Below, in pieces: positions 5,100 to 30,058 of a DNA stretch of 64,000 nt. Origin of the DNA: Desulfobulbaceae bacterium (GTDB lineage Bacteria > Desulfobacterota > Desulfobulbia > Desulfobulbales > VMSU01); contig JAQUKQ010000003.1 of NCBI GenBank assembly GCA_028718985.1, positions 1-64,000 of the forward strand, read 5' to 3'. The position numbers and the translations under genes are program-made. Position 1 is the stretch's first letter; every line of letters starts with the position of its first letter. The notes beneath the pieces are model-generated. The model saw only the letters and a program-made list of their open reading frames with translations. It ran no database searches and had not been told where the DNA came from.

Positions 5100-5197
5100 C
5101 TGCCCAGCAGCTCCCGTGCCGCTGAACAATTACGGTGTCTTCCGGTTACACTTGGGTCGCTGCGCAATACGATGAAACAGCAAAGGCAAAAAAAGAC

Positions 5198-6592
5198 GTG
5201 ATCTCATCAAACTCCTTAGAATTGACCGGCCAGCATGTTTTGGTGGTGGGGCTTGGCAAGTCTGGCCGCTCGGCCATCGACTTCTGCCGACGTCAAGGAG
5301 CGACAGTCTCGGTCTCCGATTCCTCCGCCACCAAATCTGCGGATAACGAGTGGTTGACAACGATGGGAGTCGACAGCGAGTTTGGCGGACACAGCCGCGA
5401 ATTTTGTCTTAGAGCCGACCTCATTTTCCTCAGCCCGGGCGTGCCCCACGACCTGCCACTCTTCCAGGAGGCTCAGCAGAAGGGCATCCCGGTCATTGGT
5501 GAGTTGGCCTTGGCTCCGCGCTACTTGAAAACTCCGGTGATTGCGGTTACCGGCACCAACGGCAAGACAACGGTGACAACCCTCATCGGTGAGCTCATGA
5601 AGGCCGCCGGTTTCCAGGTCTTTGTCGGCGGCAATATCGGCACCCCGTTGACGGAATACCTGATGGGCCGGCAAGAGGCGGATTGGCTGGTGCTCGAAGT
5701 AAGCAGCTTCCAATTGGATGCCGCAGGAGGCTTTCGACCTGATATCGGCCTGCTCCTGAACATATCGCCTGATCACCTTGACCGCTATGCCAACCTTGAG
5801 GAGTATGCCCTGGCCAAATTGAATCTCTTTGCACGCCAACACCACTGTGACGTGTCGATCATCAACCAGGACGACCCAGACAGTGTGCGCTTGACCGCTG
5901 GCATGAAAAGTCTCCGCCCGGGATGGACGGCAAGACGCTGCCTCTTCTTCGGCAAACAGATCAACGGCCGAAACGGGGCTGAGATTACCGGCAACACGGT
6001 ACGCTTGAAAGGCGACTGGCTAAGCGATGCAGATGATTCCTACGAACTGAAAGAGACCGCCCTCAGTCAATCGCCCAACCTGGAAAATGCCGCTGCCGCC
6101 ATTGTTGCGGCACGAGCTGCTGGCTGTAAACCGGCCGACATCAAACAGGGCCTGTCTACCTTTCAACCGCTGAACCACCGGATGACACTGGCCGCCGAAA
6201 TCAATGGGGTGCGCTATATCAACGATTCGAAGGCGACCAACATTGGTGCCGTGCAAGCAGCGCTTCAAGGGATAAGCGCACCGGTAGTGCTTATTGCCGG
6301 GGGGCGCGACAAAGGCGGGGACTACCGACTCATGGCAGAAGAAGTCCGTACCAAGGTCAAGGCCATGCTGCTGATTGGCGAGGCAAAGAAACTGATGGCC
6401 TCCGTCTTTTCACCCATGACCCGGGTCGAAGAGTTGACGTCGATGGCAGAGGCCGTACAACGTGCCCACGAGCTAGCCGTCCCGGGTGACGTGGTTTTGC
6501 TTTCTCCTGCCTGTGCTAGTTTCGACATGTTCTCCGGCTACGTGGAGCGAGGCCAAATTTTCACCGAACTTGCCCTCGGCCTGCAAGGCTAG
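5198..6592 (+). CDS. murD: UDP-N-acetylmuramoylalanine--D-glutamate ligase MurD
   Basis: Cytoplasmic ligase adding D-Glu to UDP-MurNAc-L-Ala. The N-terminal Rossmann motif VLVVGLGKSGRSA and the ATP loop VTGTNGKTTVTT (near residue 115) are clear, and the C-terminal domain ends in SPACASFDMFSGYVERG, the usual MurD tail. The frame is open from a GTG at 5135, but family N-termini begin just before the Rossmann strand, so the GTG at 5198 is preferred (464 aa). Neither start has a strong ribosome site; AAAGG lies about 11 bases before 5198. The following gene is murG, with only 3 bases between them; ftsW, which usually sits here, is missing. Confidence 0.92.
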   Translation: MISSNSLELTGQHVLVVGLGKSGRSAIDFCRRQGATVSVSDSSATKSADNEWLTTMGVDSEFGGHSREFCLRADLIFLSPGVPHDLPLFQEAQQKGIPVIGELALAPRYLKTPVIAVTGTNGKTTVTTLIGELMKAAGFQVFVGGNIGTPLTEYLMGRQEADWLVLEVSSFQLDAAGGFRPDIGLLLNISPDHLDRYANLEEYALAKLNLFARQHHCDVSIINQDDPDSVRLTAGMKSLRPGWTARRCLFFGKQINGRNGAEITGNTVRLKGDWLSDADDSYELKETALSQSPNLENAAAAIVAARAAGCKPADIKQGLSTFQPLNHRMTLAAEINGVRYINDSKATNIGAVQAALQGISAPVVLIAGGRDKGGDYRLMAEEVRTKVKAMLLIGEAKKLMASVFSPMTRVEELTSMAEAVQRAHELAVPGDVVLLSPACASFDMFSGYVERGQIFTELALGLQG

Positions 6593-6595
6593 ACC

Positions 6596-7726
6596 ATGGC
6601 CGTCGTGCAAAAAAAGGGCATTACTCTTGTCATCACTGGCGGGGGCACAGGTGGGCATATTTTCCCCGGAGTTGCCGTAGCCCAGGCGCTGATCGCCAAG
6701 ATGCCAGCCGCAAGAGTGATCTTTATCGGCACAGATCGGGCCGTTGACCAGAATGCCATGGCCCAGTATGGCTTTGCGAGTCGGGCTGTGCCATGCGGCG
6801 CCTTGAAGGGTGGCACGCTGTCGGCCAAGCTGAAGACCCTGGCCCGTTTGCCTTGGAGCCTCTATCTCGCCTGGCGCGTGTTGGGCCAGATCAAGCCGGA
6901 TGCGGTCCTGGGGGTTGGTGGCTATGTCACCGGCCCAGTGGTGCTGGCAGCCAAGCTGTCAGGCATCCCGACCTGCATCCACGAACAGAACTCAGTGCCG
7001 GGCCTTGCCAATCGCAAACTGGGTGCCATCGTCGACCGGATCTTTATCTCAATCCCCGGTAGCGAACGCTATTTCAAGGCAGAGAAATGCCGCTTGACCG
7101 GCAACCCTCTGCGCCATGAGATTCTAGCCCTGGCCCAGAACGAGCGGCCCGAAGGTAACAAACCCGTCGTCCTTGTCCTGGGTGGGAGTCAAGGGGCACA
7201 TCGTTTGAACACTTTATTGCCAGAAGCACTTAGCGGATGCAGACGACAATGCGACTTCACCGTGATCCACCAGACCGGACGCACCGATGAAAAAAGCGTC
7301 CGAGCCGCCTACCTTGAGGCGGGCATTGAGGCAGAAGTTGCCGCTTTTTTCACTGATATGACTTCGGTCTATGCCAAGGCAAGCCTTGTCGTCTCAAGGG
7401 CTGGTGCCACAACCCTGGCCGAGCTTACCGCCTTGGGAAAGGCATCGATTTTGATCCCGTTTCCCTTTGCCGCCGACGACCACCAGACAAAAAACGCTGA
7501 AGCCTTGGTGGCAGGCGGGGCGGCTCGAATGTTCATCGAGAAGGATCTGCAGGCAGAAACGCTTGGCAAAGAGATTATAGGCATACTGACTGATCAGGCC
7601 CTGCACCATGCAATGGGTCAGGCCGCCAAACGCCTCGCCAAACCAGAGGCCGTTGATACGATACTGGCAGAGTGCCTGCGTCTCGCAAAATGGCATGACG
7701 CAGATGATAAGGTCGATCATCCATAA
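6596..7726 (+). CDS. murG: UDP-N-acetylglucosamine--MurNAc-(pentapeptide) transferase MurG
   Basis: Membrane-associated GT-B glycosyltransferase that adds GlcNAc to lipid I to give lipid II. Diagnostic motifs are GGGTGGHIFP at the N-terminus, the second glycine loop GGSQGAHRLN near residue 200, and the donor-binding region SRAGATTLAELTALGK followed by PFPFAADDHQTKNA in the C-terminal domain. At 376 aa it is slightly longer than average because of a short C-terminal tail. It starts 3 bases after murD. Confidence 0.96.
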   Translation: MAVVQKKGITLVITGGGTGGHIFPGVAVAQALIAKMPAARVIFIGTDRAVDQNAMAQYGFASRAVPCGALKGGTLSAKLKTLARLPWSLYLAWRVLGQIKPDAVLGVGGYVTGPVVLAAKLSGIPTCIHEQNSVPGLANRKLGAIVDRIFISIPGSERYFKAEKCRLTGNPLRHEILALAQNERPEGNKPVVLVLGGSQGAHRLNTLLPEALSGCRRQCDFTVIHQTGRTDEKSVRAAYLEAGIEAEVAAFFTDMTSVYAKASLVVSRAGATTLAELTALGKASILIPFPFAADDHQTKNAEALVAGGAARMFIEKDLQAETLGKEIIGILTDQALHHAMGQAAKRLAKPEAVDTILAECLRLAKWHDADDKVDHP

Positions 7727-26977: not shown

Positions 26978-27010
26978 TCACTCACCCTCTGGGAGAGGGT
27001 ATGTTGTAAA

Positions 27011-27054
27011 AAAGAAAAGCCCCCATCTCGGCCGAGATAGGGGCTTTTCTTTTT
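27011..27054 (+). terminator. Intrinsic terminator after glyQ (bidirectional)
   Basis: A stem AGAAAAGCCCC-ATCTCG pairs with CGAGAT-GGGGCTTTTCT with one internal mismatch and is followed by a T run. The A run on the left lets it also end the minus-strand sulfur cluster, whose last gene stops at 27072. Confidence 0.8.
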
Positions 27055-27071
27055 ACTCTATGCTCTTTGTC

Positions 27072-27245
27072 TTACCACCAACAAATAGTCTGATCGGCGG
27101 CGAAGATCATATCAACCAAATTGCTGTAATCTGGGGCGTCGACATTGAGGTCGAAGCTTGAGGCCTCACGGCCTTCGCTGACGATCTCAACCAGTTTCTT
27201 GGTCGTGGCGTCAGGCGCTGAACGGTATACGTTTAAGATTTTCAT
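27072..27245 (-). CDS. Small conserved-context protein of the sulfur cluster (57 aa)
   Basis: A 57-codon gene that a length cutoff would miss. The ATG at 27245 has AAGGAG 10 bases upstream and the frame ends in TAA at 27072. The product starts MKILNVYRSAPDATTKKL and ends in a Cys-Trp-Trp (DQTICWW). It is last in the minus-strand run dsrE-like and tusA genes and sits directly before a terminator. It is probably one of the two uncharacterised proteins of the YTD sulfur cluster. No function can be read from the sequence. The charged, soluble composition and a single Cys near the C-terminus suggest a small cytoplasmic partner protein. Confidence 0.7.
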   Translation of the reverse strand: MKILNVYRSAPDATTKKLVEIVSEGREASSFDLNVDAPDYSNLVDMIFAADQTICWW

Positions 27246-27275
27246 CGTGGCATACTCCTTAAATTATGTCAAATA

Positions 27276-27575
27276 TCAAACAATCCCATAAGGGACGATG
27301 ACGTCCATTTCCCGCATCTTCTGGCCTAATTCCTCAATGCTGATCTTGGCCATCTCGTTGGTCTCGACATTGGCGTCCATATCAGAATAGACCTCGCCTT
27401 CCATATCGCGAATCCACTCCAAATTCTCTTTATTGTAATCGTCAAAGGCAGGAACTTCAACCCCGAGAACGGTACAATAGGCGTACATGTTTTCTACGGC
27501 AAGACCGAGGGCCGAGCGCATAGCATCATGGACGTAATCTTTATGTCTGCTGACAAAACATACTTTCTTCGACAT
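27276..27575 (-). CDS. Small cluster protein, possibly DsrE-fold (99 aa)
   Basis: A 99-residue acidic protein beginning SKKVCFVSRHKDYVHDAMRSA. The strand-loop-helix start and the Cys at position 6 recall DsrE/DsrH-type folds, but the match is weak. It lies between the dsrE-like gene and the 57-residue gene on the same strand, with gaps of about 13 and 30 bases. It is taken as the second uncharacterised member of the YTD-type cluster. The start follows AAGAGGAG. Confidence 0.7.
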   Translation of the reverse strand: MSKKVCFVSRHKDYVHDAMRSALGLAVENMYAYCTVLGVEVPAFDDYNKENLEWIRDMEGEVYSDMDANVETNEMAKISIEELGQKMREMDVIVPYGIV

Positions 27576-27588
27576 CGTTATTCTCCTC

Positions 27589-27906
27589 TTATAAGGTCAG
27601 GTAACAGTCATAGTCATCAATGACAGCGCCATGCTGAGCCTGGGTCGCCATCTTCTCCTTGGTCAACCCCTTCGGCACAACGTCAACGTCGAAACCGGAC
27701 TTCTTGTAACTGTCCGCACAGATAGAGACATCAACATTCTCCATTGCGCAGAGCTCTGGAAACTCTGCGGTCGTGGTCAATTTAGTGCCCCACCAGCTGA
27801 AAAAAACCTTTACTTTGGAACCCTTTGCCACTGCGGCCTTGGTCACTCCCATGACGTGCCGCATCTGGTTGGGATTGGTAACAAAAATTCCGAGACTTTT
27901 TGCCAT
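27589..27906 (-). CDS. DsrE family sulfur-relay protein
   Basis: A 105-residue DsrE-like protein. The alternating pattern SLGIFVTNPNQ, KVKVFFSWWGT and NVDVSICADSYKKSG, with the Cys of SICADS, is where DsrE-family proteins hold their sulfane-sulfur-carrying Cys. Such proteins pass sulfur with TusA in the cytoplasm. It follows tusA on minus after a 74-base gap and has GGGAGAGA before the ATG. A direct role in sulfur disproportionation or intracellular sulfur trafficking is inferred from context. Confidence 0.85.
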   Translation of the reverse strand: MAKSLGIFVTNPNQMRHVMGVTKAAVAKGSKVKVFFSWWGTKLTTTAEFPELCAMENVDVSICADSYKKSGFDVDVVPKGLTKEKMATQAQHGAVIDDYDCYLTL

Positions 27907-27980
27907 TTTTTCTCTCCCTTAAATATAAGTGTGGCGCAGCCAAACAAGGATGCGCCAAGTGTATACCGTGAATCGCTCAA

Positions 27981-28235
27981 TCAACCTTTCTTGATGAAGA
28001 AATGGATACAGCCGTCACCCTCTCTCTCACCTAAAAAGGTGTGGCCGCTCTTCTCACACCAACCCGGGAGATCGTTTCTTGAACCGGGGTCGGTCCCCAG
28101 GATCTCAAGAATTTCACCAGACTTCAATTTACCAATTTCCTTCTTGGTGCGGAGGAGTGGCATGGGACAGCTCAACCCTTTCGCATCAAGAGTCAAATTT
28201 CCTTTAACATCAGCGGGTGCAGTTACATTGCTCAT
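27981..28235 (-). CDS. tusA: Sulfur carrier protein, TusA family
   Basis: An 84-residue TusA-like carrier. The sulfur-accepting Cys lies in the family motif GLSCPMPLLRTKKEI. A second Cys (PGWCEKSG) and the final strand CIHFFIKK complete the fold. TusA carries persulfide sulfur between enzymes. It is the first gene of the minus-strand unit and is divergent from a YedE permease, the usual TusA partner. AAGGAGA precedes the ATG. Confidence 0.93.
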   Translation of the reverse strand: MSNVTAPADVKGNLTLDAKGLSCPMPLLRTKKEIGKLKSGEILEILGTDPGSRNDLPGWCEKSGHTFLGEREGDGCIHFFIKKG

Positions 28236-28295
28236 AGTGATCTCCTTATAACAATTTATGTTTAATGGACAGCTGATTGTAAACCAATGACAGTC

Positions 28296-28324
28296 TGTCT
28301 ACCAACGTTTAATTTTGATGTCAA
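28296..28324 (-). promoter_or_regulatory. Candidate promoter for the tusA-dsrE unit
   Basis: On minus, TTGACA (28324-28319) and TAGACA (28301-28296) are 17 bases apart. The -35 is perfect, the -10 moderate. The -35 lies 3 bases from the palindrome at 28327-28352. Confidence 0.45.
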
Positions 28325-28326
28325 GT

Positions 28327-28352
28327 GGTAAATGAATGATAATTCATTCACC
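28327..28352. promoter_or_regulatory. Operator-like palindrome between tusA and the YedE gene
   Basis: GGTAAATGAAT and ATTCATTCACC are inverted repeats with one mismatch in 11 bases, around GATA. The core TGAAT-N4-ATTCA has the 14-base geometry of CRP/FNR-family sites. Centre 28339.5 would be near -50 relative to the predicted tusA start. Confidence 0.45.
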
Positions 28353-28452
28353 TAATGACTTTAGCTGCTTTCCCCTTTGGAACAGGACGTTTATCTTGCT
28401 TGACAAAATTTTATTCGCTGGGTAGAAGAGGGTAATTCTTTAAGGCAATAAC

Positions 28453-28461
28453 TGCTACAAT
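28453..28461 (+). promoter_or_regulatory. Candidate extended -10 promoter of the YedE gene
   Basis: TGC followed by TACAAT fits the extended -10 form (TGnTATAAT, one mismatch). A weak -35 (TAATTC) lies 17 bases upstream. A start near 28468 leaves a leader of about 86 bases. A TTGACA at 28400 with a poor -10 (TAGAAG) is an alternative. Confidence 0.35.
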
Positions 28462-28553
28462 GTAGGCTGCTCGGGCAATTAGGTAGAATTTCGGACACCA
28501 ACATTTGTAGTCCACTGAAAAGAAAGTTTTGTTCAACCGGGGGGAGGAAAGGC

Positions 28554-29876
28554 ATGGCAGAGGATAACGTTTTTCTGGGCAAGGTTCAGGGGTTATACAA
28601 AAAACTGTGTCAAGATGAGTGGAGCGCCAACACGGTCGGCATTATTGTTGGCCTTTTCAGCGTCCTTGCAGCTGCCTGGTGGCGGCCTTGGGGGGCAGTC
28701 GGTGCCGTGCGCAACTGGGGCGAGTGGATTCTCTACGGGGTCGGCGGGATGGAATCAGCCCCGCAAAGCGCCCTGCTCAGCTCCGGCTCGGTAATCGGTT
28801 TGGGCTTTATCGGTGGTGCCTTTATCTCTGCAAACCTGGGCAGTAATTTTGCCATCCGTATCCCGCCGGTCTGGGAGCGGGTCAAAGCAGTCGCCGCCGG
28901 TATCCTGATGGGCATTGGCGCCACCTTGGCCGGTGGTTGTAATGTCGGCGGCTTTTACAACGCTATCGGCAACCTCTCGGCACATGGCTTTGCCATGTGG
29001 TTGGGTTTGATCATTGGTGCCATTGCAGGCTTGAAGTATATTTACTGGGAGATGGAGAATGTCACTTGGGGCAGTGGCGGTGGCAAGACGATTGACCTGC
29101 CGAAAGCCCTGCAGGGCATCCTCGGCTTAGCCGCGATCATACTCCTGATCTGGGGTGCGCGCACTTACAGCGCCAGCGAAGATAGTTACATGGGCTCCCT
29201 CGGCGGCATCATGCTGATCGCGGCGGTTTTGGGATACTCCATGCAGCGTGGCCGCTGGTGCATGATCCAAGGTTTCCGTGAACCGCATATGACCGGCGAC
29301 TGCACCATGGCGAAATCAGTCGCCCTCAGCGTCTGCATCGTAGCGGTTGGCGCCGTCGTTCTGAAATACCCAGTACCGGAGCGCTTGAGTCAGGTCCGCT
29401 CCACCTTTGCAACCGTCGTTGAAGAGGTCACGGACCAAGCCGCAGATCTCGACATGGAGGCACTGCTGGAAAATGTCGATGGCATCAATGAACTACAGGA
29501 GAGCATCCCTGTCTTGGCCCCCAATAACTACGTCCGCGGCACCTTCGGTTGGGGCGGCGTGGTCGGCGGTATGGTCTTTGGCTTTGGCGCTATGCTCGCC
29601 GGCGGCTGCGGCACCGGAACCCTATGGCGGGTGGGTGAAGGCCAGATTAAATTGTGGATCGTCGTCCCCTTCTTTGCCGTCAGCAACGCCCTGATGACCG
29701 CCTGGTTTGAAAAGGCGGGCTTTGAGGCAAGCGGCAAGCTTGGCAAAGCAGTTTTCCTGCCTGACACCTTCCTTGGATATGGCGGCACCTTGGCCCTCAT
29801 CCTGGGTGCCATGGCCATCTGGTATGTGGTGGTCGACTGGAACGAAGAGAGCAACAAGTTTGTCGTTGATATGTAA
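28554..29876 (+). CDS. yedE: YeeE/YedE family sulfur transporter
   Basis: A 440-residue inner-membrane permease with about ten hydrophobic segments. The conserved Cys-containing loops of the YeeE/YedE fold appear in both halves: GATLAGGCNVGGFYNA and GAMLAGGCGTGTLWRVGEG. Additional cysteines lie in RGRWCMIQGF and GDCTMAK. In the family such cysteines relay thiosulfate or sulfur compounds across the membrane, usually together with TusA. A charged segment around residues 280-320 links the halves. GGGGGAGGAAAGG precedes the ATG. The gene is divergent from tusA-dsrE, forming the YedE-TusA-DsrE arrangement. Confidence 0.9.
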   Translation: MAEDNVFLGKVQGLYKKLCQDEWSANTVGIIVGLFSVLAAAWWRPWGAVGAVRNWGEWILYGVGGMESAPQSALLSSGSVIGLGFIGGAFISANLGSNFAIRIPPVWERVKAVAAGILMGIGATLAGGCNVGGFYNAIGNLSAHGFAMWLGLIIGAIAGLKYIYWEMENVTWGSGGGKTIDLPKALQGILGLAAIILLIWGARTYSASEDSYMGSLGGIMLIAAVLGYSMQRGRWCMIQGFREPHMTGDCTMAKSVALSVCIVAVGAVVLKYPVPERLSQVRSTFATVVEEVTDQAADLDMEALLENVDGINELQESIPVLAPNNYVRGTFGWGGVVGGMVFGFGAMLAGGCGTGTLWRVGEGQIKLWIVVPFFAVSNALMTAWFEKAGFEASGKLGKAVFLPDTFLGYGGTLALILGAMAIWYVVVDWNEESNKFVVDM

Positions 29877-29925
29877 TCACTTCGTGTAACACGCCTGGAC
29901 GGGCGTCAAAGCGCCTTCCCATACC

Positions 29926-29973
29926 ACAAAGAGCCATGACTCCCCCTTGAGGGGTTCATGGCTCTTTGTTTTT
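29926..29973 (+). terminator. Intrinsic terminator after the YedE gene
   Basis: ACAAAGAGCCATGA pairs with TCATGGCTCTTTGT, with an inner CCCC/GGGG stem, and is followed by TTTTT. Confidence 0.8.
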
Positions 29974-30058
29974 CTGCTTGACAGATCAACGCTTCCATAG
30001 CCTTATTAGGATAGGTTCCTAAATCTTTTTTCTCCGTAAAAACCGCCCCAGCAGCATT

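Follow-up and report, generated by a model that had tools for sequence, protein, structure and literature searches.

A gene cluster for sulfur trafficking lies in the 64,000-nucleotide stretch (hereafter the window) that we analysed from contig JAQUKQ010000003.1 (positions 1 to 64,000, assembly GCA_028718985.1) of an uncultured Desulfobulbaceae bacterium. Its five genes, each present as the open reading frame (ORF) that a first-pass annotation of the same DNA had described, encode the transporter YedE, the sulfur carrier TusA, a DsrE-like protein and two small proteins of 99 and 57 amino acids (aa), called F and H below. The last four genes are co-oriented, and yedE is divergent from all of them. 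The locus holds the following features.

27008..27062, bidirectional: predicted terminator hairpin between glyQ and dsrH
27072..27245, minus strand: dsrH type II (Chp), 57 aa, C-terminus ICWW; named as DsrH after PMC13293266 and PMC13047784
27276..27575, minus strand: dsrF type II (Chp), 99 aa; confident structure model with DsrE/DsrF-like matches in the PDB
27589..27906, minus strand: dsrE type II (dsrE-like), 105 aa, Cys63 in V-S-I-C-A-D-S
27981..28235, minus strand: tusA, sulfur-carrier protein, 84 aa, C23-P-M-P motif
28236..28553, no strand: divergent intergenic region, 318 bp, with TTGACA-like -35 elements facing both ways
28331..28348, no strand: dyad AATGAAT-GATA-ATTCATT, candidate regulator site beside the tusA-side -35
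28554..29876, plus strand: yedE, YeeE/YedE-family membrane transporter, 440 aa, internal duplication
29920..29978, plus strand: predicted terminator hairpin 3' of yedE

The yedE product matched Pfam Sulf_transp in two halves (1e-39), and the tusA product matched Pfam TusA (1.2e-24). A family-library search with the 105-aa, 99-aa and 57-aa proteins themselves gave no match; among homologues of the 105-aa protein, 13 of 17 matched Pfam DsrE/DsrF (best E 3.7e-5). Together, the five genes are a complete copy of the published YedE-TusA-DsrE (YTD)-type sulfur-trafficking cluster, which is already known and widespread. They comprise what defines it, namely yedE-related, tusA and dsrE-related genes together with two or three conserved hypothetical genes (Umezawa 2020, via PMC8780430 and PMC12998232). 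The same set of yedE, tusA, a dsrE-like gene and two conserved hypothetical genes occurs in Desulfolithobacter dissulfuricans and Dissulfurimicrobium hydrothermale (PMC9751629, PMC8780430); in D. dissulfuricans its expression during disproportionation is known. The locus also has the arrangement that defines DsrEFH type II, three consecutive small genes syntenic with tusA and yeeE/yedE (PMC13293266). Elsewhere in the genome, outside the cluster, a second and weaker Sulf_transp (YeeE/YedE-family) match stands at the family cut-off (contig C8:28776-29123; L003, L031).

Since the same gene order recurs in loci of other genomes, it is not a product of chance. A contig scan of relatives yielded 17 loci, titled Desulfobulbaceae, Desulfurivibrionaceae, Desulfobacteraceae or Deltaproteobacteria metagenome-assembled genomes, in which the cluster genes lie together; yedE was not recovered in five, and the F and H genes were lost to a contig end in one. 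In a whole-genome set of 56 loci, our own included, every locus had four or more of the five genes clustered. All five were present in 51/56, tusA-dsrE-F-H stood without an adjacent yedE in 4/56, and one locus was cut by a contig end. The yedE gene was divergent in 36 loci of this set and codirectional in 16. Because it is codirectional wherever present in loci outside the taxonomic order, the divergent layout is a habit of the lineage and not part of what defines the cluster. The four loci lacking yedE, read for 1.5 kb on each side, are L084, L087 and L088 (genomes G026, G013 and G035, family f5) and L103 (G121), and they may rely on a different importer for sulfur or on a distant yedE. No relatives of DsrE were found on plasmids or in viral contigs.

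The first-pass annotation was right to place the two small proteins in the YTD set, but its description of them as unknown is outdated: two 2026 papers (PMC13293266, PMC13047784) identify them as DsrF-like and DsrH-like, and the dsrE-like gene with the two hypothetical genes is described as encoding a divergent DsrEFH complex, DsrEFH type II (PMC13293266). The AlphaFold model of F had a predicted local distance difference test score (pLDDT) of 94, and its top Foldseek match was 3pnx, a DsrE sulfurtransferase (E 9e-3); 2qs7 and 2fb6 were other high-ranking matches. By this model, the F subunit has a DsrE/DsrF-like fold. The model of H (pLDDT 97) is a beta-alpha-beta-alpha-beta structure. H is named as a putative DsrH after the published complex models (PMC13293266; PMC13047784, with a DALI Z of 4.7). 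Since the third protein has about 57-60 aa in every intact homologue examined, with a length nearly constant across the phylum, the shortness of H is normal for its type.

Several cysteines that could carry sulfur are conserved. DsrE Cys63 is invariant in 56/56 homologues, TusA Cys23 and Cys60 in 18 homologues, and YedE Cys19, 129, 236 and 352 in 12. In many members the DsrH cysteine within ICWW is replaced by serine, and the DsrF cysteines are not invariant; among the three subunits, only DsrE therefore has a plausible relay cysteine. Judging by its invariance and place rather than by an alignment with the published proteins, Cys63 is presumably the counterpart of the published Cys67/78.

The remaining genes of sulfur metabolism were searched family by family in the genome (225 contigs, 93.7% complete), where the first-pass annotation had pointed to dsrAB, aprAB and sat as the genes to look for. 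Contig C29 carries dsrAB with a dsrD-like gene, and the nearest structures are of the reductive, Desulfovibrio type; the genome thus combines the cluster with reductive dsrAB, as described for DsrEFH type II (PMC13293266). DsrC ends in CKMAGLPKPTGCV, with both C-terminal cysteines of the dissimilatory type, and is the sole DsrC/TusE-family protein found. Two matches to sat were present. The aprA family search of the genome found no aprA, and a weak aprA-like match on contig C7 lies in an ORF that reads as NadB. However, contig C187 starts within qmoB and cuts it at residue 233 (C187:1, L118), aprA is present in 3/3 congeners, and in one of them aprB-aprA-qmoABC is contiguous. Given the cut qmoB and the aprA of all three congeners, an assembly gap, rather than a loss from the organism, most likely accounts for the absence of aprBA-qmoA, and a lack of sulfate activation was rejected as its explanation.

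DsrE type II tracks the Dsr pathway, and within the order it is close to fixation. The gene was found in 56/58 genomes of the order (own genome counted) and in 73/395 genomes of the phylum. A dsrA above the family cut-off occurred in 71 of the 73 genomes with DsrE type II and in 117 of the 322 without it (Fisher p 5e-24, a descriptive value that ignores kinship); the two exceptions, G133 and G356, were read by eye.

We consider it probable that the cluster encodes a cytoplasmic relay from YedE through TusA and DsrEFH type II to DsrC and DsrAB, which would serve either to oxidise sulfur or as the oxidative half of disproportionation. In such a relay, sulfane sulfur, presumably from thiosulfate or polysulfide, would cross the membrane through YedE and be accepted by Cys23 of TusA. 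Cys63 of DsrE, within DsrEFH type II, would take the sulfur from TusA and pass it to DsrC, and DsrC would deliver it to DsrAB. Combined with DsrABD of the reductive type, Sat and, presumably, AprBA-Qmo, the Dsr pathway would then run oxidatively or as the oxidative half of disproportionation. For this organism, we infer the substrate, direction and regulation of the relay as well as the role of its H subunit. The relay is supported by the gene content and order, the invariant cysteines, the predicted fold of F, the organism's own DsrC, dsrABD and sat, the co-occurrence with dsrA, and published biochemistry (PMC13293266). In the latter, sulfur passed in vitro between TusA and DsrE-Cys67 in both directions and from DsrE-Cys67 to DsrC of Electronema aureum. 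The E. aureum GS system has the same gene set, with tusA-dsrE-F-H co-oriented beside a yedE-family gene, and likewise keeps the active DsrE cysteine in a genome with reductive dsrAB (PMC13293266); the active cysteine is residue 67 there and 63 in the window.

Some observations weigh against the relay or the assignment of its subunits. The Foldseek E values of the F model are modest (about 0.01-0.02, with probabilities of 0.98-1.00), and the fold search with the H model matched no DsrE/F/H-fold protein. The published complex has been termed structurally analogous, but not orthologous, to DsrEFH (PMC13047784), and the E. aureum proteins were unreactive with thiosulfate (PMC13293266). The canonical type I complex, DsrEFH of Allochromatium vinosum (PDB 2HY5), and TusBCD of E. 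coli are likewise encoded by three consecutive small genes in a sulfur-transfer context and have the active cysteine in DsrE, but when hhalign was used to compare H with E. coli TusB, and F with TusC, neither pair gave a significant match. H has 57 aa as against 95-102 aa in the canonical proteins; its sole cysteine is the third-last residue, and Cys20 of canonical DsrH (PMC13047784) is missing. Profiles built from the alignments of E, F and H also found nothing significant in the PDB. The idea that H is a DsrH that has lost its middle part, retaining a TusB-like start and a Trp end, was unsupported by hhalign.

The cluster is at the centre of a current dispute, in which it is read either as a marker of disproportionation or as a sign of a hidden sulfur-oxidising capacity of sulfate reducers. 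The first-pass annotation correctly recognised a YTD-type set that has been proposed as a marker of sulfur disproportionation (PMC12998232, PMC9751629), and DsrEFH type II has been argued to mark sulfur oxidation (PMC13293266). An alternative to the relay is a dedicated disproportionation module, in which thiosulfate or sulfur enters through YedE and is split by TusA in the manner of YeeD, with the DsrEFH-like complex accepting the products; the presence of the cluster would then predict disproportionation. The cluster occurs in all elemental-sulfur disproportionators studied (PMC12998232), and a modelling study of the DsrEFH-like complex favours disproportionation (PMC13047784). Nevertheless, the cluster also occurs in strains for which the evidence speaks against disproportionation of any form, and it is unusable as a sole marker (PMC12998232); it is found in only 40% of cultured disproportionators (PMC13293266). 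With the DsrE gene in 56/58 genomes, the cluster has no discriminating power within the order, which argues against it as a marker by itself.

Comparison with known systems points the same way. Thiosulfate uptake by TsuA/TsuB (YeeE/YeeD) likewise pairs a YeeE-family transporter with a TusA-family protein, but the window proteins score far under the NCBIfam equivalog cut-offs: YedE reached 69.9 and 77.4 bits against the TsuA models (cut-offs 400 and 645), and TusA 16.7 bits against the TsuB model (cut-off 147.5). The gene set described for elemental-sulfur disproportionators combines YTD with MOLY (MolyABC with a TorD-family chaperone), and MOLY is reported in 90% of them (PMC12998232). In contrast, a search for the TorD-family chaperone (TorD/MolyC-type, PF02613) gave no match in this 93.7%-complete genome, MolyA and MolyB not being searched directly, and the missing chaperone speaks against a MOLY cluster. 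We therefore regard a dedicated module as unlikely. Disproportionation by the organism, which the first-pass annotation had suggested, is possible, but it is not indicated by the cluster alone; that interpretation is partly supported and has been overtaken by the 2026 papers. The present copy adds one uncultured Desulfobulbales-type lineage to the dispute and is otherwise an ordinary finding.

A second dsrAB lies on contig C130 of the same genome (L030:930-6305, minus strand), with a DsrL-like NAD(P)H oxidoreductase carrying a YRR motif and a flavorubredoxin-type gene; the YRR motif is a feature of DsrL-2 (PMC7596348). In congener G001 (C28, L110:7923-14929), a 65.7-kb contig holds a DsrA that is 88% identical, together with the same oxidoreductase and with a multihaem cytochrome-like gene. 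The set was found in 2/4 genomes of the genus and 0/54 of the others searched, and DsrA copies in the other 56 genomes reached at most 47% identity over the full length. Contamination is an unlikely source, as the 88% identical DsrA sits within the 65.7-kb contig of a congener. Members of the genus might run Dsr both ways, with dsrABD reducing and the genus-restricted dsrAB-dsrL-like set, fed by DsrEFH type II, oxidising, but we hold this to be unlikely.

In E. coli, TusA and proteins of the DsrE family work in tRNA thiolation, and YedE-TusA-DsrEFH could by likeness to TusABCDE be an assimilatory or housekeeping relay for tRNA or cofactor thiolation, but this is very improbable, as dsrA accompanies DsrE in 71/73 genomes, the one member of the DsrC/TusE family found carries both C-terminal cysteines of the dissimilatory type, and the DsrE gene is missing from 322/395 genomes of the phylum.

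The five genes are closed on both sides by predicted terminators, as had been proposed. Folding of 27008-27062 gave -33.2 kcal/mol (z -7.8) on the minus strand and -29.4 kcal/mol (z -7.1) on the plus strand, and this segment is read as one hairpin terminator common to glyQ and the cluster; 29920-29978, 3' of yedE, folded with -30.2 kcal/mol (z -6.6). A simple consensus terminator scan listed neither hairpin. Between tusA and yedE, the perfect dyad AATGAAT-N4-ATTCATT at 28331-28348 is the sole instance in the window, with 0 expected. The same arms recur as a dyad in two congeners, immediately 5' of a TTGACA that faces tusA, but this dyad is not conserved in the further relative L007. A sigma-70 scan of the region found 3 promoter-like sites against 2.9 expected, which is not significant. 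From the dyad and the adjacent TTGACA, a regulated pair of divergent promoters is plausible, but a single operator for both genes, which the first-pass annotation had linked to coordinated control, is not established.

Elsewhere in the window, at 5135-7726, a murG-like gene comes immediately after murD with no ftsW between them (ORF reading; ftsW was not searched elsewhere), whereas ftsW usually lies between murD and murG in the cell-wall cluster.
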